From: Polyangia bacterium
GTDB taxonomy: Bacteria; Myxococcota_A; Polyangia; Polyangiales; Sandaracinaceae
Assembly: GCA_030426845.1 (NCBI GenBank)
Contig: JAUHXR010000014.1
Span: 1-58,541, forward strand
Direction: 5' to 3'
Length of the DNA stretch: 58,541 bases
A model generated the notes under the pieces. That model was not told where the DNA came from and did not search any database. It saw only the letters and a program-made list of their open reading frames with translations. This document shows, piece by piece, positions 1 to 13,111 of this stretch. Each line of letters starts with the position of its first letter. The first letter of the stretch is position 1. The translations under genes and the position numbers were made by a program.

Positions 1-557
1 ACGGCGGAGGGCTCGGGCGGCGTGGGCGTGTCCTCGCCGGCCTCGAGCCCCTCGAGGTAGCCCTCGAGCAGGCGCGAGAAGAGCGCTTCGATCTCCGACT
101 CCCAGCCCAGCGCCTCGCACGCGAGGGTCACGGAGACGCCGAGGCGCGCGAGATCGAGCACCGCCGGCCCGGTGGTCGCGCCGTCGAAGTCGGTGAGCCC
201 GCGGCCGAGGTCGGTGACGGCGTACTGCTCGAGGTGTGCGTCGCCGTGGAGGTTCACCGGCGGCGCGTCGCGCATCGAGTCGCCCAGCTCCTCGCAGACC
301 TCGGTGGAGAACTCGCGGTGGATGAATCGGAAGTAGGAGTGCGGGCTCGAGCGCAGGCGCCGCAGCAGGTCGGGGTTGCGGGCGAAGTCGGTGTGGGTGA
401 TGTCGATCGCCAGGGGATCCGGCGGCGGCGGGGTCACCTCGGGCGGCGTCTCCGGAGGGGTGGGCGGCGCGGGCGCGCAGGTCTCGCAGCTCGCGAGCGT
501 CGCCGCGAGCGCCGCGAGGGCGAGCGTCAGGGCGCGGGAGCGTGCCGGTGTCGTCAC
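1..557 (-). CDS. DUF2252-family lipoprotein (C-terminus beyond window edge)
   Basis: Only the first 185 codons are present; the frame runs off the left edge. Translation from GTG gives a short signal peptide ending in a lipobox (LASC, lipidated Cys about residue 24), a Pro/Thr linker, then a domain with H-G-D-A-H-L-E (His about residue 104) and a downstream D-F-D-G-A...G-P...L-D-L-A-R-L block. These are hallmarks of DUF2252, a family with an aminoglycoside-phosphotransferase-like kinase fold. The position usually occupied by Asn after HGDxHLE is Gln here. The GTG lies 2 nt after the stop of the barrel gene, so it is the fourth gene of a leftward operon. DUF2252 function is not established; lipidation implies an extracytoplasmic location. 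GTG is chosen because the lipoprotein signal begins there. Confidence 0.8.
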   Translation of the reverse strand, partial: MTTPARSRALTLALAALAATLASCETCAPAPPTPPETPPEVTPPPPDPLAIDITHTDFARNPDLLRRLRSSPHSYFRFIHREFSTEVCEELGDSMRDAPPVNLHGDAHLEQYAVTDLGRGLTDFDGATTGPAVLDLARLGVSVTLACEALGWESEIEALFSRLLEGYLEGLEAGEDTPTPPEPSA

Positions 558-559
558 CT

Positions 560-3974
<3,415 letters not shown>

Positions 3975-3978
<4 letters not shown>

Positions 3979-5522
3979 GAGGAGGCTCCCGGCTCGTGGG
4001 TCGCGATGTCGGCGGTCGGGTCCTCGTTCACGCGGTCGCTCGCGCGGACGAGGAGAAACGTGAAGCCCAGCCAGAGCACGACGAGCACCAGGTTGACCGC
4101 CGCCATCGCCTGCAGGCCCATCTCGAGCGCGGTGCTCCCGACGATGAACAGGAGCGCGGCGAGGACGTCGCCGCTCCGGACGACGAAGGTGTCGACCGCC
4201 TGCTTGCCCGCGTACTTGGCCGCCTTGGTGGTCGGCAGCCAGACCATCGCCTTGCCCGTGTTCATGATGGAGTAGTCGGTCGAGTTCTCGGCCGTCTTGG
4301 CCCAGCGCAGCACCACGAGGCCGAGCCCGGCGGCGAACAGCGCGTAGGAGCCGAAGGCCACGAGAGGGAGCGCGAAGAGGACCGCGCGCAGGCCGAAGCG
4401 CTTGACGAGGCGCGAGACGACGAAGAGCTGGAGCAGCAGCGCGGCGACGTTCACGATCGAGAAGAAGCGCCCGTAGAAGCCGCCGATGAACGCGCCGCGG
4501 CTCGCCGCCTCGCCCGCCGCGACCGCCTGCGTCGCGGCCTCCGCCACGAGGTCGCTCAGCAGGAACTCGCCGAGCGTGTTGACGAGGTTGAGGGTGAGGA
4601 TGACGGCCGCGATGAGCCGAACGTAGGGGCTCCGCAGGATCAGCCCGAAGCCGTCGCGCGCGCCCTCCTTGGCGGGCTTCGAGCCCTCCTCGGAGCTGGC
4701 CTCTTCGTCGGCGCTGGCCGCCTCCGCGCCCGGGCTCGCCGGCTCGTAGCGGCGCGCGACCCACACCATCAGCGCGGTGAACAGGATGAGCAGCACGGCC
4801 GGCGCCTGCAGGAGCAGGAACGACGGGTCGAGGCCGTTCTCGGTGAGGAACTGGTTGAACGCGGGCGCGACGTAGTCGACGTCCTTGACCAGCTCGGGAG
4901 AGACCATCGCGTAGAACTGGCTCGCCGCCTCGGAGCCTACCGGCGCGCCCGCGGTGGCGCCGACGCCGATGATCGGGAACAGCCGCTTGCCCTGCTCCTC
5001 GGTGTAGATGTCGTTCCCGAACGACCAGAACTGGGCGATCATCGAGACGCTGAAGATCCCCACCCAGATGTAGAAGACGAACCCGAGCATCAGCGCCCCC
5101 GCGAGCTTGAGCGCGAAGAAGAGCTGGATGCAGAGAACGAAGAAGACCGACACGCCCACGATGAGGCGCACGCGCGAGATGCGGCTCGCGAGCCACGAGT
5201 AAGCGGGGACGTAGATCAGGAGCAGCAGCGCCTGGCAGCCCGCGGCGAACGCCTTGAGCTGCGGCCCGTCCTGCTCGATGAGGATGTTCTTGAGCCACAC
5301 CGGGATGTCGGCCTGGCTCACGACCCGCAGGTCCGCGGCGGCGGACGCGAGGACGAGCGGCTCGCGCACCGTCTTGAGCACGTAGTAGCAGACGAGCAGC
5401 AGGAAGATCGTCACCAGCAGCGTCAGCGCGGTCGAGCCCTCGCCGGGGCGCACGTCGCTGAAGAGCCGCAGGAAGCGGTCGAGGATCGAGCCTCGCGGGG
5501 CCTCTGGTCGTTCGCGGTTCAT
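3975..5522 (-). CDS. Npt/TLC-like nucleotide (ATP/ADP) transporter, MFS-type membrane protein
   Basis: A 515-residue polytopic inner-membrane protein with about 11-12 hydrophobic segments and a Ser/Glu-rich cytoplasmic loop in the middle. The first membrane segment carries V-L-K-T-V-R-E-P-L, and a later block has W-S-F-G-N-D-I-Y-T-E-E-Q-G-K-R-L-F-P-I-I-G. These patterns match bacterial proteins annotated as Npt1/Npt2 (TLC, ATP/ADP translocase-like) nucleotide transporters. Plastid and intracellular-parasite relatives exchange ATP and ADP; the substrate in free-living bacteria is not established. ATG at 5522 is preferred over upstream in-frame codons because those lead into an Arg-rich, unstructured extension inside the divergent promoter region. 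It is the first gene of the leftward operon. Confidence 0.75.
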
Positions 5523-5664
5523 CGCCGGAGATCGGGTCGGCCCAGGAAGGCCATCGGACGTTACTCGCTCCTGGCGCCGGCATGTAGGCGAATGGGAAGC
5601 CAGCCGCAAAGGGGCGCTTCGAATCCTCCGGCGCCGGCCTCCGGTGTGGCATGTTCGCGTCGCC
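5523..5664. promoter_or_regulatory. Divergent promoter region of the envelope locus
   Basis: 142 bp between the divergent transporter and barrel genes. It contains two copies of the palindrome-like octamer GGCGCCGG (5573-5580 and 5630-5637), 57 bp apart, which could be operator half-sites for co-regulation of the two operons. No clear -35/-10 pair is visible. Confidence 0.35.
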
Positions 5665-7041
5665 GTGTCCGCCCGCCTCACCGCCGCGCTCCTCGCGGCC
5701 GCGCTGCTCGCCGCGAGCCCCGCGCGCGCCGACGGCCCGAGCGAGAGCTCGCCCGAGAACCCGCCCGAGAACCCGCCCGCGCGCGAGGTCCCGGACTACG
5801 ACGGCCGGCCCGAGCCCGACGCCGACCCGGCGGACGCCGCGCTCTGGGTGCCGCGGATCCTGACGGGGCCCCTCTACCTGATCAGCGAGTACCTCCTGCG
5901 CGCCCCGCTCGGGTTCGTGGTGACGGAGCTCGAGCGCTCGCGGGTCTTCGAGTTCCTCTTCGACGTCTTCGTGTTCGGGCCCGACCGCAACATCGGTGTG
6001 CTGCCGACCGCGTTCTTCGACTTCGGGCTCGCCCCGTCCGCGGGGGTGTTCATGTTCTGGAACGGCTTCCTCGCGGACCAGAACCAGCTCACGCTCCACG
6101 CGGCGACGGGCGGGCTGGAGTTCCTGATGCTCACGGTCCGCGACCGCTGGCGCCCCTCCGAAGAGACCACGGTGGCGGCGCGCTTCCAGCTCCTGACGCG
6201 CCCCGACCAGCAGCTCGGTCGGATCGAGAGCCCGCTCCCCGCGGCCCAGCGACCGACCGCGCGCTACGGCGTCGAGCAGATCGAGGGCGGGATCGACGTG
6301 TCGTGGCGCCCCTGGGGCCGCAACCTCATCGGCGCCTCGGCCGGCTACCGCGGCGTCGCGTTCCTCGACCGGCGCTGGCGCGAGGAGGACCGCACGGTGC
6401 GCGAGATCTACGGCCCCGACGCGCTCCCCGACGCCTACGCGACCGGCTTCTCGTCGCTCGATCTCGGTGTCCGCTTCGTGATCGACAGCCGCCCCGAGAG
6501 CGAGCTGTCGCAGGGCGGCGTGCGGGTCGAGGGCCACGCGATCGAGCACATCGGCTTCGGCGGGGTCCCGGACTCGAGCTGGGTGAGCTGGGGCGCCTCG
6601 GCCGCGGCCGCCACCGACGTGCTCGGGCGGGGCCGCGTGTTCGGGCTCACCGCGACGGTGCGGGGCGTGAGCCCGGTCGGCGAGGCGATCGTGCCGTTCG
6701 TCGATCTGCCGGAGCTCGGCGGCGTGGACGGACCGCTCCCCGGGTTCCAGCCCGGGCTCGTGCGCGGGCGGAGCCTCGCCGCGCTGGTCTTCCACTACAC
6801 CTGGCCGCTCCACGCCTTCCTCGACAGCGTCCTGCACTACGGGCTCGGCAACGTGTTCGGCGACACCTTCACCGACTTCGACGTCGAGCTCGCGCGGATG
6901 TCCTTCGGCCTCTCGATCGCGCCGCGCTTCGAGGGCACCCACCTCTTCGAGCTCGGCCTCGCGTTCGGCACCCGGCCGTTCCGCGACGGCGCGAACATCG
7001 AGTCGGTCCGCTTCGTGGTCGGCGCGAGGAACGGCCTGTGA
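5665..7041 (+). CDS. Omp85/D15-like outer-membrane beta-barrel protein (paralogue)
   Basis: About 458 residues with a Sec signal peptide (cleavage after SPARA), a short Pro/Glu linker without the long DP/EP tract, then the same W-x-P-R-I-L-x-G-P-L-Y-L-x-S-E-Y block as the barrel at 560-2284 and a C-terminal barrel-like region. The two proteins also share the tail V-x-S-V-R-F-V-V-G. GTG 5665 gives the compact signal peptide; an in-frame GTG at 5644 would add seven residues. The stop overlaps the next start (GTGA). It is likely an outer-membrane protein that works with the co-encoded lipoprotein, mirroring the pair on the opposite strand. Confidence 0.8.
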   Translation: MSARLTAALLAAALLAASPARADGPSESSPENPPENPPAREVPDYDGRPEPDADPADAALWVPRILTGPLYLISEYLLRAPLGFVVTELERSRVFEFLFDVFVFGPDRNIGVLPTAFFDFGLAPSAGVFMFWNGFLADQNQLTLHAATGGLEFLMLTVRDRWRPSEETTVAARFQLLTRPDQQLGRIESPLPAAQRPTARYGVEQIEGGIDVSWRPWGRNLIGASAGYRGVAFLDRRWREEDRTVREIYGPDALPDAYATGFSSLDLGVRFVIDSRPESELSQGGVRVEGHAIEHIGFGGVPDSSWVSWGASAAAATDVLGRGRVFGLTATVRGVSPVGEAIVPFVDLPELGGVDGPLPGFQPGLVRGRSLAALVFHYTWPLHAFLDSVLHYGLGNVFGDTFTDFDVELARMSFGLSIAPRFEGTHLFELGLAFGTRPFRDGANIESVRFVVGARNGL

Positions 7042-8693
7042 CCCGCGGCTGGCCCGCCATCCTCTCGCTCGCGCTGCTCGCCGGTTGCGCGAGCGCCCCT
7101 GCGCGCTTCGCGCTCCGCGACGCGATGTGGGTGGACGACGACCGGCGCCCGTTCCCGCGCCGCCCGGGCGAGCTCTACAACCCGCCGCAGTGGGACCGGA
7201 TCGATCACACGCTCTTCCGGCCGCTCTCGGAGCTGTTCACCTACGAGCTCGACCGCGAGGCGATCAACGTCAACGCGCTCGACGAGGTCCCCGACTCGAG
7301 CTGGTTCACCAACCGCCTCGGCCGCGCGCCGATGAGCCCGCAGCGCCTCGCCCAGGGCGCGTGCCGGGATGCCGGCGAGCCGCCGCGGCCCTGGACGGTG
7401 GTGCGCGCCAAGCCCGCCGGGACGAGCCCGGGCCTGGTCGTCCGCGCGGCCGACGACCGCACGTTCCTCTTCAAGATCGACTTCGACCTCCCCGAGCGCG
7501 GGACCGCGGCGGACGCGATCGCGACCCGGCTGTTCTGGGCCGCCGGCTACCACACGCCGTGCAACCGCGTGGTGCGGTTCGCGCGCGACGACCTCGCGCT
7601 GGCGACCGAGCCGATCGACGGGCACGACCCGCCGGGCGAGGACGCGGTGCAGCGCCTCCTCGACGCGGCCGGACGCGCGCCCGACGGGCGCTACCGCGGC
7701 AGCCTCAGCGAGTACATCGAGGGGCAGCCCCTCGGCGGCTGGCGCTACAGCGGCACGCGCGACGACGATCCGAACGACGTGGTCCCCCACGAGCACCGGC
7801 GCGAGGTGCGCGGCATGGTCGTGCTGAGCGCCTGGCTCAACCACATCGACGCGCGCGCGGAGAACAACCAGGACGCGTGGATCGAGGGCGACGATGGGCA
7901 AGGATACTTGCGGCACTACGTGCTGGACGTCGGCGACTCCTTCGGCCAGCAGCTGCCCAGCTCGCCGCTGCTCAGCCAGAGCTTCGGGCACGCCTTCTAC
8001 GTGGACGTGCAGCACATCACCGAGAACTTCCTCTCGCTCGGGCTGGCCGAGCGGCCCTACTTCGACGCGCCGCGGGGTCCGGCGGGCGACGTGCTGGGCT
8101 TCTACGACATCGCGCGCTTCGACGCCGAGGGCTGGCACAACGGCTACCCGAACCCGGCGTTCGATCGGGCGACGGAGCGCGACCGCGCGTGGATGGCGCG
8201 CATCATCGCCCGGTTCACCGAGGCCCAGCTGCGCGCGGCGATCGCGGCCGGCGACCTGTCGCGGCCCGAGGTGAGCGAGGAGCTGCTGCGCATCCTGCTC
8301 GGGCGACGCGAGCGCATCTTGGAGCGCTACCTGACCCGCCTCTCGCCGCTGACCGAGCCGACGGTCCGCGGGGGGAGCCTCTGCCTCACCGACCTCGCGC
8401 TGCGCTCGGGCCTGCGGGCGGAGCGTCGCTACTACACCCGTGCGTTCGAGGGCCTCCCGGGCGAGCGCCGGCCGACCCGGGGGGCGCGCCGCTACGGCGA
8501 CCGCGCGTGCATGCCGCTGCCGGCCGCGGAGGCGAGCCCCGAGGCGCCGGCCTACTGGGTCGTCGACGTGGTCGCAGAGACGCCGGGGCGGGAGCGCACC
8601 GCGCCGGCTCGCGTCCACCTGTACCAGCTCGGACCGGGGGCGTACCGGGTGGTCGGCCTCGAGCGCCCCGACGGCTTCGACCCGCCTGGCTGA
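7038..8693 (+). CDS. Lipoprotein with kinase-like catalytic motifs (copy 2)
   Basis: A 551-residue paralogue of the product of 2281-3978, lipidated at Cys17 (LLAGC). Aligned key positions are Lys146 in F-L-F-K, then G-Y-H-T-P-C-N-R-V-V, then H269-I-D271-A-R-A-E275-N276, and D297-V-G-D300. H-x-D-x-x-x-E-N plus a later D-x-G matches the protein-kinase catalytic/metal loops in order and roughly in spacing. A Gly-rich ATP loop is not obvious, so if it is a kinase it is atypical. The region P-N-D-V-V-P-H-E-H-R-R is identical in both copies. GTG overlaps the barrel stop. Substrate and activity are unknown. Confidence 0.8.
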   Translation: MTRGWPAILSLALLAGCASAPARFALRDAMWVDDDRRPFPRRPGELYNPPQWDRIDHTLFRPLSELFTYELDREAINVNALDEVPDSSWFTNRLGRAPMSPQRLAQGACRDAGEPPRPWTVVRAKPAGTSPGLVVRAADDRTFLFKIDFDLPERGTAADAIATRLFWAAGYHTPCNRVVRFARDDLALATEPIDGHDPPGEDAVQRLLDAAGRAPDGRYRGSLSEYIEGQPLGGWRYSGTRDDDPNDVVPHEHRREVRGMVVLSAWLNHIDARAENNQDAWIEGDDGQGYLRHYVLDVGDSFGQQLPSSPLLSQSFGHAFYVDVQHITENFLSLGLAERPYFDAPRGPAGDVLGFYDIARFDAEGWHNGYPNPAFDRATERDRAWMARIIARFTEAQLRAAIAAGDLSRPEVSEELLRILLGRRERILERYLTRLSPLTEPTVRGGSLCLTDLALRSGLRAERRYYTRAFEGLPGERRPTRGARRYGDRACMPLPAAEASPEAPAYWVVDVVAETPGRERTAPARVHLYQLGPGAYRVVGLERPDGFDPPG

Positions 8694-8708
8694 GCCCCGC
8701 GGCGAGGC

Positions 8709-8765
8709 CAGGGCCTGAGCCCTGCACCCCGCGTGACGAGCGCGTGAGCCCCCCGAACCGGGGGC
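8709..8765 (+). terminator. Two small GC hairpins after the envelope operon
   Basis: CAGGGC/GCCCTG arms with a CTGA loop (8709-8724), followed by GCCCCC/GGGGGC arms with a 6-nt loop (8748-8765), lie between the lipoprotein stop and the next gene. No U-tract follows, so this is a weak terminator call. Confidence 0.35.
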
Positions 8766-8805
8766 GGTGAGGGGCCGCGCGGCGTGGTAAGCCTCGAAGG
8801 CAGCG

Positions 8806-9498
8806 ATGAAGGCGCCGAGACCCCGACCGTGGTGGAAGCGCGTGCCCCCGGAGCCGGCGGCCGCGCTGGCCGTGATGGCCGTCGTGCTGCTCTACGGGGT
8901 GTGGCACGCGTTGTCCGCCGCGCTCTCTTCCGAGCCCGACCTGCCCGACCTGCCCAACGTCGCCGAAGTGACGGACGTGCCGGCCGAGGTCTCCGCGGCG
9001 GACGAGGCGCCGCCGCTCGGAGAGGCGTCGCGCGCTCTGATCGGCGCGCCGCCCGTCCCGAACCCCACCGAGCTGGCCGCCGTAGGGGCCGAGCCAGCCC
9101 CGCCCGAGGGGGCCCCGGCGCTGGTGCCGATCGCGCCTGACCCGGCGACCGACGTCGCGCCGGTCGAGCCCGAGCTGCGAGGGGACGACCCCGCCGGCGA
9201 CCCCCCCGCGCTCCCCCCGAGCGCCCTGGCCCCGGCCGCCTCTACGCCGAGCCGGCCGGCCCCCGAGCAGCCGGCCGCTGTCGCGCCCACCCCGGTCGCT
9301 CCGTCGCCGGTCGCTCCGTCGCCGGTCGCGCCGCGCCCTGCGCCTCGGGCGCGTCGACCGGCCGCCGCGACGCCGCCGCCCGCGGAGCCTCCCTCGGAGC
9401 CGCCGCCGTCGGAGCCGCCGCCGTCGGAGCCGACGCCGGTCGCGCCCGTGCCGGTCCCCGAGACGAGCCCCGCCGTCCCGAGCAACCCGTTCCGCTGA
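8806..9498 (+). CDS. Single-pass membrane protein with long Pro/Ala-rich tail
   Basis: 230 residues: a basic N-terminus (K-A-P-R-P-R-P-W-W-K-R), one hydrophobic segment at about residues 19-40, then a low-complexity Pro/Ala/Glu/Ser extension containing V-A-P-S-P and E-P-P-P-S repeats. No domain is recognised. The shape (short cytosolic N-terminus, membrane anchor, extended periplasmic Pro-rich arm) resembles envelope-spanning linker proteins, but nothing specific supports a function. Other open frames here are less plausible because they consist mostly of Arg or Gly/Ser. Confidence 0.6.
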   Translation: MKAPRPRPWWKRVPPEPAAALAVMAVVLLYGVWHALSAALSSEPDLPDLPNVAEVTDVPAEVSAADEAPPLGEASRALIGAPPVPNPTELAAVGAEPAPPEGAPALVPIAPDPATDVAPVEPELRGDDPAGDPPALPPSALAPAASTPSRPAPEQPAAVAPTPVAPSPVAPSPVAPRPAPRARRPAAATPPPAEPPSEPPPSEPPPSEPTPVAPVPVPETSPAVPSNPFR

Positions 9499-9580
9499 CC
9501 CGGCCGAACAGACCCGGCCGAACAGACCCGGCCGATCAGGCCGGTCGATCAAGGGCCGGCCGATCAGCGCCGGCCGATCC
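9497..9580. repeat. 14-bp tandem repeat, about six units
   Basis: Units begin GACCCGGCCGAACA (two exact copies), then GACCCGGCCGATCA, and decay into three CCGG(C/T)CGATC variants, filling 84 bp. It occupies the whole space between two convergent genes (stops at 9498 and 9583). The CCGGCCGATC cores are partly self-complementary, so it may double as a bidirectional terminator. Confidence 0.85.
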
Positions 9581-9582
9581 AG

Positions 9583-11037
9583 TCAGTCGTCGAAGGACTC
9601 GTGCTGCACCCAGCGGCTGCGCGGGTGGCGCCGCCGGCGGTCGCAGCGGAGCCGCTCCGGCGGCCGGTCGGGGCGCGTCCACGGCACGTGGCGGATCGGG
9701 CTGAGGTGCCCGTCGCGGTGCCGCACGCCCGGGCGGAAGAGCTGCGCCGGGTCGCAGTTGTTGCCGTCGAACATCAGCTCGAAGTGCACGTGGGGCCCGC
9801 GGCTGATCCCGGTGCTGCCCACCTCGCCGAGGATCCCGCCGCGCGGGACGGTCTGGCCTGCGACCACGGAGTTTGCGCTGTTGTGCGCGTACATCGTCAC
9901 CCAGCCGCCCGGGTGAACCACCATCACGAGGTTGCCGTAGCCGGGGACCTCGTCGCCCGAGTAGCCCACCACGCCCGGCGCGGCCGCGCGCACGTTCCAG
10001 CCGATGCGCCCCATGATGTCGACCGCGAGGTGGTAGCCGCCCTCGCCCGAGCCATAGCCGCGCACGAACCAGCCGCCGGTCACCGGCCAGCGCAGGTGCC
10101 CGGGGAGCCGGTTGCGGTTGCCGCCGGCCGCGGCGATCCAGCGCGGCTCCACCTGACCGCGCAGCAGCCGGGTCGCGGTCGCCCGCGTCCCGAGGCCGAG
10201 CCGCTCGGCGCGCCGCATCGCGCGCTGCTGGTTCTGGGTGAGCTGCCGCCGCACGCGCCCGCCGGTGTCGCGCTCGACCCCGGGGATCCAGAGGCGCGCG
10301 CCCTCCTGCAATCCCTGCACGCCCGCCTCGTCCAGCCCGTTGGCGGCCATGATCTCGGAGACCGTGACCCCGAACATCCGCGCGAGGTCCCACATCGTCT
10401 CGCCGCGGCTCACCACGTGGCGGAATCCGCGGCTCGCGCGGTTCTGGGCGAGGCTCTGCTCGCGGTTCTCGGTCGCGCGCTCGACCTGCCGCTCGGTGAC
10501 CCCGGGGACGACGATGGAGCGCCCCGGGCGGAGCAGCCGCACCGAGTCGTCGTCGAGCTCGTTGCGGGCCATGAGGTCGTCCATCGGGACGTCGTAGAGG
10601 TGCGCGACGTCCCAGAGCGTCTCGCCGTCGATCAGCCGGTGGTACGCGCCGTCCTCGACCGGCGGCAGCTCCTCGGGCTCCGCGGCGTCCGTGATCGTGA
10701 CCACCTCCTCGGCGCCCGGGATCCGCAGGGTCTGGCCCGTCCGCAGCCGCCGCACGTCGCGCGGCCGCATCTCGTTCGCCTCCATGATGTCGTTGACCGA
10801 GACGTCGTAGGCGCGCGCGATCGCCCAGAGGGTCTGTCCCTCCTCGATCGTGTGATCGACGCCCGGCGGCGGGCCCTCCGGCTCCGGCTCCTCCTCGGGC
10901 GGCGCCGCCTCGGCGACCGGGGTCGGGTCCGCCGGCGCCGGGGCCGGCTCCTCGCCGCAGCCCGAGTACACCGCGCTGGCCAACGCCGCGCCGGCGAGCA
11001 GCGCGAGGGTCGGTCCGATCGAACGCGTCCACCGCAT
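9583..11037 (-). CDS. LysM-LysM-LysM-M23 peptidoglycan endopeptidase, lipoprotein
   Basis: A 484-residue lipoprotein (Y-S-G-C, Cys27) with a Pro/Glu linker, three LysM modules (about 62-107, 133-178, 205-254, each with G-x-T-L/M-W-x-x-A and a final I-P-G/V-P-G) and a C-terminal M23/LytM domain (about 315-440). The zinc and catalytic residues of active M23 enzymes are present: H336-x-x-x-D340, Y-A-H385 and H416-x-H418. It should therefore cleave peptide cross-links, unlike degenerate EnvC/NlpD activators. The tail after 440 is basic and Arg-rich. A -10-like TAGATC lies 9 nt before the ATG, in line with other genes in this window. Confidence 0.92.
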   Translation of the reverse strand: MRWTRSIGPTLALLAGAALASAVYSGCGEEPAPAPADPTPVAEAAPPEEEPEPEGPPPGVDHTIEEGQTLWAIARAYDVSVNDIMEANEMRPRDVRRLRTGQTLRIPGAEEVVTITDAAEPEELPPVEDGAYHRLIDGETLWDVAHLYDVPMDDLMARNELDDDSVRLLRPGRSIVVPGVTERQVERATENREQSLAQNRASRGFRHVVSRGETMWDLARMFGVTVSEIMAANGLDEAGVQGLQEGARLWIPGVERDTGGRVRRQLTQNQQRAMRRAERLGLGTRATATRLLRGQVEPRWIAAAGGNRNRLPGHLRWPVTGGWFVRGYGSGEGGYHLAVDIMGRIGWNVRAAAPGVVGYSGDEVPGYGNLVMVVHPGGWVTMYAHNSANSVVAGQTVPRGGILGEVGSTGISRGPHVHFELMFDGNNCDPAQLFRPGVRHRDGHLSPIRHVPWTRPDRPPERLRCDRRRRHPRSRWVQHESFDD

Positions 11038-11115
11038 GGACCCGGCGATCTACGATCTCCGAGCGCCTCCGGCAAAGGCGCGGCCCCTGAGGAGCTCCGC
11101 GGAGCTCCGCGGGGC

Positions 11116-12234
11116 TCAGCGGCGGCGCTGGCGCGGGGCCGGGAAGGGGACGAGCGCGCGGCTGGGCCCGTGCATCGCCCGGCGCACCATCCCGTAGGTC
11201 TGCCCGGGGTGCCAGAACAGGAAGCCGTTCGCCCCCGCGCGCCGCGCCGCACGGATCTGGTCGTGGATGAACGTCTCGTCGTAGTGGGTGCCCGCCCCCT
11301 GCGCGAAGGCCTGGAGGAACGGCCGGATGACCGGCTGGACGCCGATGCGGTTGCGGAGCCGGCGCGTGCCGCCGAACACCAGCCGGTAGGCCCGGTTGTC
11401 CTCGCCGAGCCGCCACGCCCGCATCGAGTTGACGTAGAGCATCGGCGTGTAGACCTCGACGTACTGGCTCCACGCGTCGAGGTCCTGCCCGAGGCCGCTC
11501 GGATCGCCGTCCCGGTAGGCCGCGAGGCCGAAGACGTCGACGCCGAGCGGGATGTGGATCGCCTCGTCGACCGACCGCAACAAGCGCAGGAGCACGTCCG
11601 TCCGGCTCTCCTGCGTCTCGCTCGGGTAGCGCGCGAACTGGGTGCCGTCGTCGACCGGGAAGCGCACGTAGTCGAGCTGGACCTCGTCGAAGCCGAGGGC
11701 CTCCGCCTCGCGGGCCAGCGCCACGACGAGGCGGTGGTTCTCCGCGTTGTGGGGATCGAGCCAGGTGCCGCCGGTGCCCCAGCTCACCCACAGCTCGCGC
11801 GCCCGGCGCACGTCCTGGATCGCGCGGCCCGGGACCCGCTCGGGCAGCGCGCGATCGGCGAAGCAGACGATCCGCGCGATCGCGTAGAGGTCGTTGTCGT
11901 GCAGCGAGCGGACGAGGGCCGCGGTGTCGCCGAGCCACCCGGTGCGCATCTCGCGCAGCTCCCCCACCTGGGTCGCGTGGTGGACCCGCCCCTCGGCGTC
12001 CTTCAGGTCGAGGACGACCGCGTTCATCCGTGCGTTGCGCGCCGAGCTGACGACCGCCTCGTGGCCGTGCCGCCGGACGAACGCCGCGCCGATGTAGAGG
12101 CCCCGCGCGGCGAGCCCGCGTTCGCTGACCGGGTCGACGAGCGCGTCGCCTTGCGCGCGGGCGCGGTGAGGGTGGACGAGGGAGCCGAGCGTGACGATCA
12201 GCGCGACGGCGGCGAGCGGAGCGGCGCGGAGCAC
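11116..12234 (-). CDS. Exported putative glycoside hydrolase (DUF4015-like TIM barrel)
   Basis: 372 residues with a signal peptide (cleavage near RARAQ). Sequence landmarks are G-L-Y-I-G near the start, V-V-L-D-L-K-D-A-E-G, A-R-I-V-C-F, G-F-D-E-V-Q-L-D-Y-V-R-F-P, and V-Y-T-P-M-L-Y. These are characteristic of the DUF4015 'putative glycoside hydrolase' TIM-barrel family; the D-E-V-Q-L-D-Y-V-R-F-P block contains the probable active-site acids. Substrate is unknown. The GTG at 12234 is used because upstream ATGs are out of frame. It is divergent from thiD and likely in the cell envelope. Confidence 0.8.
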   Translation of the reverse strand: MLRAAPLAAVALIVTLGSLVHPHRARAQGDALVDPVSERGLAARGLYIGAAFVRRHGHEAVVSSARNARMNAVVLDLKDAEGRVHHATQVGELREMRTGWLGDTAALVRSLHDNDLYAIARIVCFADRALPERVPGRAIQDVRRARELWVSWGTGGTWLDPHNAENHRLVVALAREAEALGFDEVQLDYVRFPVDDGTQFARYPSETQESRTDVLLRLLRSVDEAIHIPLGVDVFGLAAYRDGDPSGLGQDLDAWSQYVEVYTPMLYVNSMRAWRLGEDNRAYRLVFGGTRRLRNRIGVQPVIRPFLQAFAQGAGTHYDETFIHDQIRAARRAGANGFLFWHPGQTYGMVRRAMHGPSRALVPFPAPRQRRR

Positions 12235-12279
12235 GCGTTCATCATGCCGTCCCCGACGCCCGGCGCCGAGTTTGTGCGG

Positions 12280-12285
12280 TACGCT
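12280..12285 (+). promoter_or_regulatory. -10-like box TACGCT before thiD
   Basis: TACGCT ends 7 nt before the thiD ATG. The same placement recurs at other genes here. No convincing -35 is seen, and the call rests on recurrence. Confidence 0.35.
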
Positions 12286-12292
12286 GCGGGCG

Positions 12293-13111
12293 ATGACCGC
12301 GGTCGCGCTCACCATCGCTGGCTCCGATCCCTCCGGGGGCGCCGGCCTCCAGGCCGACCTGAAGACGTTCCATCAGCACCGTGTCTACGGCACCTCGGTG
12401 CTCACCCTCGTCACCGTCCAGAACACCCGCGGGGTGGAGCGCGTGGAGGTGCTCGACCCGCAGCTCGTCGTGCAGCAGCTCGCGGCGGTGGTCCAGGACA
12501 TCCCCCCGGGCGCGGCCAAGACGGGCGCGCTCGGCAGCGCGGAGGTCGTCGAGGCGATCGCGGCGTCGGCCGCCGAGCTCGACTGCCCGCTCGTCGTCGA
12601 TCCGGTGATGATCAGCAAGCACGGCGCGCCGCTCCTCGACGAGCCGGCCCGCGAGGCGCTGCGCCGCGCGCTCCTGCCGCGCGCGACCCTGGTCACGCCC
12701 AACGCCGACGAGGCGGCGTGGCTCAGCGGGCGCGACGTCACCTCGCGGCGAGGCGTGCTGGACGCCGCCAAGGCGATCGCGGACCTCGGCGCGTGGGCGG
12801 TGCTGATCAAGGGCGGCCATGTGCCGGGGCCCGAGGCGGTCGACCTGCTGTACGCCAACGGCCACGTCCACGAGCTGAGCGCCCCGCGGATCGACACGCC
12901 GCACACTCACGGGACGGGCTGCACCTACTCGGCCGCGATCACCGCGCGCCTCGCGCTCGGCGAGCCCCTGATGGCCGCGGTCTCGGAGGCCAAGGGCTGG
13001 CTCACCGAGGCGCTGCTCTCGCCCCCGCAGGTCGGCCGCGGCATCGGCCCGGTCAACCACCTGACGCGGGTCAGCCGCCAGAGCCAGCCGCCGCCGCCGC
13101 GCGAAGAGTGA
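12293..13111 (+). CDS. thiD: Hydroxymethylpyrimidine/phosphomethylpyrimidine kinase
   Basis: A 272-residue cytosolic ribokinase-fold enzyme of thiamine biosynthesis that phosphorylates HMP and HMP-phosphate. Visible motifs are G-S-D-P-S-G-G-A-G-L-Q-A-D near the N-terminus (substrate loop), D-P-V-M-I-S-K-H-G in the middle, T-P-N-A-D-E-A, and the anion-hole/catalytic G-T-G-C-T-Y-S-A-A-I near residue 210, where Cys replaces the usual Asp-region neighbour as is common in ThiD. Length is typical (about 265-275). ATG 12293 is chosen because the family begins A-L-T-I-A-G-S-D. No other thi gene is nearby. Confidence 0.93.
   Translation: MTAVALTIAGSDPSGGAGLQADLKTFHQHRVYGTSVLTLVTVQNTRGVERVEVLDPQLVVQQLAAVVQDIPPGAAKTGALGSAEVVEAIAASAAELDCPLVVDPVMISKHGAPLLDEPAREALRRALLPRATLVTPNADEAAWLSGRDVTSRRGVLDAAKAIADLGAWAVLIKGGHVPGPEAVDLLYANGHVHELSAPRIDTPHTHGTGCTYSAAITARLALGEPLMAAVSEAKGWLTEALLSPPQVGRGIGPVNHLTRVSRQSQPPPPREE

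Follow-up and report, generated by a model that had tools for sequence, protein, structure and literature searches.

A lipoprotein family with a predicted atypical kinase fold is linked to Omp85-type barrels in Myxococcota

Two divergent gene sets for paired lipoproteins and barrels

The stretch of DNA analysed here (the window, 58,541 nt) is the entire contig JAUHXR010000014.1 of a Polyangia bacterium from the family Sandaracinaceae (assembly GCA_030426845.1). At its start, it carries two divergent and tightly overlapping gene sets, which code for two paralogous lipoproteins, two paralogous outer-membrane barrels and a carrier of the NTT family. A first-pass annotation had proposed that these genes, together with one for a DUF2252 lipoprotein, form an extracytoplasmic phosphotransfer module, and its gene set, divergent operons and junctions were all confirmed at the positions given in Table 1. 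On the minus strand, the carrier gene overlaps the gene for lipoprotein A by 4 nt, which in turn overlaps that for barrel A by 4 nt, and the GTG start codon of the truncated DUF2252 gene follows the stop codon of barrel A after a gap of 2 nt. On the plus strand, the genes for barrel B and lipoprotein B likewise overlap by 4 nt. Lipoproteins A and B share 51% identity, and barrels A and B share 37%. Chance does not account for the arrangement: homologues of the genes occur in many genomes, where they retain their neighbours.

Table 1. Genes of the two divergent sets (positions in the window).
Gene product	Position	Strand	Features
DUF2252 lipoprotein, N-terminal part only	3..557	minus	GTG start at 557; cut by the contig end
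Barrel A	560..2284	minus	signal peptide, (DP)n/(EP)n linker, two helices, predicted 16-stranded Omp85-type barrel without POTRA
Lipoprotein A	2281..3978	minus	lipobox LAGC, predicted atypical kinase domain, C-terminal beta-rich domain
NTT/TLC-type carrier, clade A	3975..5522	minus	PF03219, 60.3 bits; matches to NTT structures
Barrel B, paralogue of barrel A	5644..7041 (GTG at 5644 or 5665)	plus	same barrel family
Lipoprotein B, paralogue of lipoprotein A	7038..8693	plus	all kinase motif residues (KDND catalytic set)

Fold, catalytic residues and predicted location of the lipoproteins

Neither lipoprotein A nor B belongs to a Pfam or NCBIfam family, and sequence searches against Pfam, NCBIfam, PHROGs, PADLOC and PDB sequences yielded nothing useful. 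The Pfam families HipA_2, HipA_C and CotH gave no score above cut-off with either protein, and a weak HipA_2 match (0.04) was obtained with one of 28 homologues. An AlphaFold2 model of lipoprotein A built from 28 homologues reached a predicted local distance difference test score (pLDDT) of 89.4 and a predicted template modelling score of 0.92. In this model, residues ~94-425 of the mature protein (numbered with the lipobox Cys as 1) form a kinase domain, which is followed by a beta-rich domain at residues ~426-545. Searching with the model by Foldseek returned E-values under 1e-3 for Fam20C and Fam20A only, while VIA-align placed CtkA of Helicobacter pylori first (Z 15.2 over 239 residues), followed by Fam20C (13.9), PI4KII-alpha (13.0) and then HipT, HipA, MavQ and actin-fragmin kinase; the top 34 among the 50 listed entries were all kinases, with Z-scores from 15.2 to 9.4. 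The model thus shows the two-lobed atypical kinase fold of the HipA/PI4KII/Fam20-type superfamily. By hhalign, with the barrel and carrier alignments serving as negative controls, the lipoprotein profile matched HipA_2-family proteins with an E-value of 3.5e-5 (probability 72), and the Lys, the HxDxR..N loop and the IDxG motif fell on their HipA-like counterparts; no significant match was obtained with CotH (E 0.34) or HipA_C. The C-terminal beta-rich domain contains a conserved cysteine pair and has no clear known relative.

The two lipoproteins of the window contain the motifs HIDARQEN/HIDARAEN and IDFGD/LDVGD. Across 55 non-redundant intact homologues, K110, G113, G117, K131 and D262 never vary, and D288 is present in 54 and N267 in 53; the nucleotide-binding Lys, the catalytic Asp and Asn and the metal-binding Asp of the kinase site correspond to K131, D262, N267 and D288. 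The motifs H-x-D-x-x-x-E-N and D-x-G-D named in the first-pass annotation hold at their near-invariant His, Asp, Asn and DxG sites, and the Gly-rich loop and the Lys are almost as constant, but the Glu before the Asn is not strict, as position 266 can hold Q, E, D or H. Ten copies have lost two or more of the four catalytic residues. We regard these copies as degenerate or pseudokinase-like (loci L118-L122, L126, L131, L133, L135 and L136), and they represent two events on the tree, one clade of nine and one lone row. Among 37 strongly conserved columns, 14 are lost in the degenerate copies and 23 structural ones are kept, and all 7 kinase-motif columns are found among those lost (p 3e-4, an indicative value, as rows from the same clade cannot count independently). 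As judged from the alignment, joint motif loss of this kind is what kinases and pseudokinases show. With fold, catalytic residues and HipA_2 profile alignment in agreement, the kinase-like character suspected for the lipoproteins at first pass is well supported at the level of fold and residues, and phosphotransfer would be their most likely activity.

The lipoproteins are predicted to reside outside the cytoplasm. All aligned rows but two (71 of 73) contain the lipobox Cys, and two cysteine pairs co-vary as expected of two disulfides, Cys93 and Cys161 being jointly present or absent in 72 of the 73 rows and Cys443 and Cys488 in all of them. According to the rule known from E. coli, a lipoprotein without Asp after the lipid Cys is directed preferentially to the outer membrane, and neither lipoprotein A nor B has an Asp at this position, which makes the outer membrane their probable location.

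Barrel partner, linkage and neighbouring genes

An AlphaFold2 model of the last 434 residues of barrel A (pLDDT 89.1) shows a BamA-type barrel of 16 strands, and its best Foldseek matches were BamA, Sam50 and TamA (E 8e-11 to 1e-8). The Pfam family Omp85 scored 21.3 bits with barrel A at a cut-off of 24 and did not match barrel B, but it matched 24 of 43 homologues. POTRA domains gave no Pfam match in the barrels, and barrel A has a signal peptide, an acidic Pro-rich linker and helices in its N-terminal part. What had been described as D15-like paralogues are by model, Foldseek matches and Pfam matches of homologues predicted to be POTRA-less 16-strand Omp85-type barrels. The linker of barrel A is a long Asp-Pro/Glu-Pro repeat (window 1955-2135), which is missing in barrel B.

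Homologues of the lipoprotein were found in 12 of 38 relatives and in 52 of 377 Myxococcota genomes (a tally including weak hits), with up to six per genome. A contig scan with single-sequence patterns, which may miss other phyla, detected relatives in Myxococcota only. A barrel of the family is present at 57 of the 65 Myxococcota lipoprotein loci, mostly on the same strand and overlapping or adjacent. Two of the eight loci without it are contig edges, and inspection by eye of five intact loci in which no barrel had been detected revealed no overlooked one. In the reverse direction, a lipoprotein gene lies beside 27 of the 29 strong family-barrel hits in the 38 relatives. The kinase-fold lipoprotein and the Omp85-type barrel thus constitute a real core module which is widespread in Myxococcota; a literature search of incomplete coverage found no published description of the lipoprotein family or the module. 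One of the two exceptional barrels (locus L190, G015:C163:8001-18000, positions 3024-8439) is convergent with an abutting NTT-HEAT-type gene, and the kinase lipoprotein is absent on that stretch.

The carrier of the window lies well above the PF03219 cut-off of 21 bits, and a profile of 18 carrier homologues matched the solved ADP,ATP carriers 9j3n (5.5e-26) and 9j3j (1.7e-17), which identifies it by sequence as a genuine NTT homologue. Carriers are found near the lipoprotein at 25 of the 65 loci, and about 14 switches between presence and absence of a carrier map to the lipoprotein tree, so the linkage is recurrent but labile. In several families, their junctions with intact lipoprotein genes are near-operonic, with 5 to 36 nt between the genes or an overlap. 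None of the ten degenerate copies has a carrier nearby, compared to 25 of the ~55 other loci, and genomes with degenerate copies can also hold an intact copy with a carrier; comparing intact copies with those carrying any substitution gave no significant association of carrier and intactness (p 0.06). The tree contains two recurrent carrier clades, clade A with the carrier of the window (~20 loci) and clade B (~15 loci), the labels of individual loci resting on short motifs. Clade B consists of carrier-HEAT fusions (three checked in Pfam), and a protein binding cyclic nucleoside monophosphates (cNMP) adjoins them at 10 loci. The fusion together with this neighbour, seen by the module at L061, L110, L114 and other loci, is a candidate nucleotide-regulated unit; NTT-HEAT-cNBD architectures occur in free-living bacteria (PMC5381601). 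Elsewhere in the genome of the window (locus L045, G000:C450, positions 7027-10956), a PAP2-like gene adjoins the gene of a carrier homologue.

A PAP2 phosphatase gene, in most cases with recognisable catalytic motifs, lies near the lipoprotein gene at 18 of the 65 loci, with less than one expected from the background of ~0.75 per Mb (90 hits in 14 genomes, ~120 Mb). The DUF2252 gene matched PF10009 over its N-terminal part (8.5e-11, 42 bits at a cut-off of 22.3) as well as APH (1.8e-7), and its product contains the APH-like motifs HGDxHxxQ and DFDG. As a member of the module it was rejected, since no DUF2252 hit was found near any lipoprotein gene of the 38 relatives except in the window. The DUF2252 protein, whose linkage is local, could be a further kinase-like protein with a lipid anchor. 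From the four-family linkage proposed initially, the survey thus retains the lipoprotein-barrel pair as conserved and the carrier as recurrent, but not DUF2252. An apparent neighbour cluster of 18 loci was set aside after inspection by eye, which suggested common two-component regulators and wrong-frame shadow open reading frames. Also in the window, genes for a LysM-M23 peptidase and a DUF4015 glycosyl-hydrolase-like protein adjoin each other on the minus strand (9583-12315) and are likely a cell-wall pair.

Proposed role and relation to known systems

We consider it somewhat probable that the two genes form an envelope module in which a lipid-anchored kinase, a new family within the HipA/PI4KII/Fam20-type superfamily, acts at an outer-membrane barrel. 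The computations show a lipobox, a kinase fold with conserved catalytic residues, cysteines that co-vary, a barrel fold and conserved linkage, whereas phosphotransfer, contact with the barrel, the target and nucleotide supply by the carrier are what we infer. The lipoprotein would be exported, lipidated and disulfide-bonded, with a complete nucleotide-binding and catalytic site in most copies, and would dock at the POTRA-less 16-strand Omp85-type barrel. It would use a nucleoside triphosphate as phosphate donor for a target in the envelope. This target could be a lipid, a glycan or a protein of the outer membrane or surface, either displayed by the barrel or produced in its vicinity. The NTT-family carriers that accompany the pair in many genomes may bring nucleotide across the inner membrane, and the PAP2 phosphatase encoded nearby may work on this phosphate pool as well. 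The supply of nucleotide is the weakest step of this proposal and appears doubtful, and a whole machine in which an NTT-type carrier feeds the periplasm, the lipoprotein kinase uses the nucleotide, the barrel presents or receives the target and PAP2 resets the system is somewhat less likely still.

Several observations weigh against the proposed role. Relatives with a kinase fold include catalysts of AMPylation or polyglutamylation. Fam20A is an ATP-binding pseudokinase (PMC5413348), so the fold alone is no proof of phosphotransfer. The degenerate copies keep their barrel partner, which suggests a role that is in part independent of catalysis. Over half of the intact loci lack the carrier, about half of the clade A carriers in the relatives are found away from any lipoprotein, some in lipoprotein-free genomes, and the absence of carriers near degenerate copies is not independent evidence because only two degeneration events are on the tree. 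Furthermore, four charged residues of Arabidopsis NTT1 (K155, E245, E385 and K527) are required for ATP/ADP exchange (PMC3306366, PMC4256464). Placing them on the 9j3j sequence by a single consistent numbering offset, we found Ala, Gly, Glu and Asp at these sites of the carrier in the profile alignment, with only E385 kept. In the same alignment, an invariant Lys occurs four residues before the K155 site, and a single-sequence alignment instead gives Arg at the K527 site. The NTT homology seen at first pass is therefore upheld, but the ATP export suggested along with it is unproven and weakened by the replacement of three of the four residues and by the carriers of lipoprotein-free genomes.

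The constancy of the barrel with its BamA/TamA fold, and the retention of barrel and structural columns by the degenerate copies, would also fit a kinase-fold lipoprotein which serves mainly as a subunit or plug of the barrel in outer-membrane assembly or cargo display, comparable to BamCDE with BamA or LptE with LptD, nucleotide binding being secondary. We regard such a structural complex as unlikely, since a scaffold is not expected to keep a whole kinase site as strictly as the 55 divergent copies do. More improbable again is a kinase-fold transferase of other chemistry (AMPylation, glutamylation, or a polyphosphate or lipid diphosphate donor): it would need no periplasmic ATP and would suit the loci lacking a carrier, the missing canonical carrier residues, the PAP2 neighbours with their hint of a lipid-phosphate or pyrophosphate context and the established existence of kinase-fold enzymes with different chemistry, but the lipoproteins carry the ordinary K/D/N/D motif set and no feature indicates another donor. 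For the carrier step alone, and compatible with an envelope kinase module of the core pair, the NTT carriers may be components of a unit of their own, related to nucleotides or cNMP (NTT-HEAT with a cNMP-binding protein), that shares no more than genomic islands with the pair. The clade B fusions with their adjacent cNMP-binding proteins, an architecture known in free-living bacteria (PMC5381601), the clade A carriers without lipoprotein and the barrel abutting an NTT-HEAT gene all point in this direction, but the near-operonic junctions with intact lipoprotein genes in several families and the 4-nt overlap in the window speak against it, and we hold this possibility only tentatively.

If the envelope kinase module is active, the lipoprotein would phosphorylate targets outside the cytoplasm, in a setting that normally lacks ATP. 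Myxococcota, a phylum whose members are predatory and social, would then have a new extracytoplasmic kinase family that comes with its own outer-membrane partner. The module makes testable whether, and by which carrier, the Gram-negative periplasm obtains nucleotide for phosphorylation, and it sets the NTT carriers of free-living bacteria (PMC5381601) in a defined gene neighbourhood. With the latter and those of plastids and Chlamydia, the carrier of the window shares homology over nearly its whole length, but it differs in having kept only E385 of the four charged residues.

Like the spore-coat kinases of the CotH type, the lipoproteins would place a kinase fold outside the cytoplasm, but profile similarity to these was not found, and no CotH kinase was found in the genome of the window. 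HipA-like kinases (HipA_2, HipT, CtkA) provide the best structural match and the aligned catalytic motif, but the lipoproteins of the window differ from them by the lipobox, the barrel and the lack of a Pfam score above cut-off; to our knowledge, the known HipA-like kinases are cytoplasmic or secreted and have neither lipobox nor barrel. With the secretory-pathway kinases Fam20C and Fam20A, the lipoproteins share a predicted atypical kinase fold outside the cytoplasm (Z 12-14), likely disulfides and the occurrence of both active and pseudokinase members, but they are bacterial lipoproteins with an outer-membrane barrel partner, only ~11% identity and no Pfam match. The barrels resemble the 'noNterm' subfamily of Omp85 proteins (PMC4104836) in lacking POTRA domains, and are set apart from the description of that subfamily by their dedicated lipoprotein partner and their conserved N-terminal helices.

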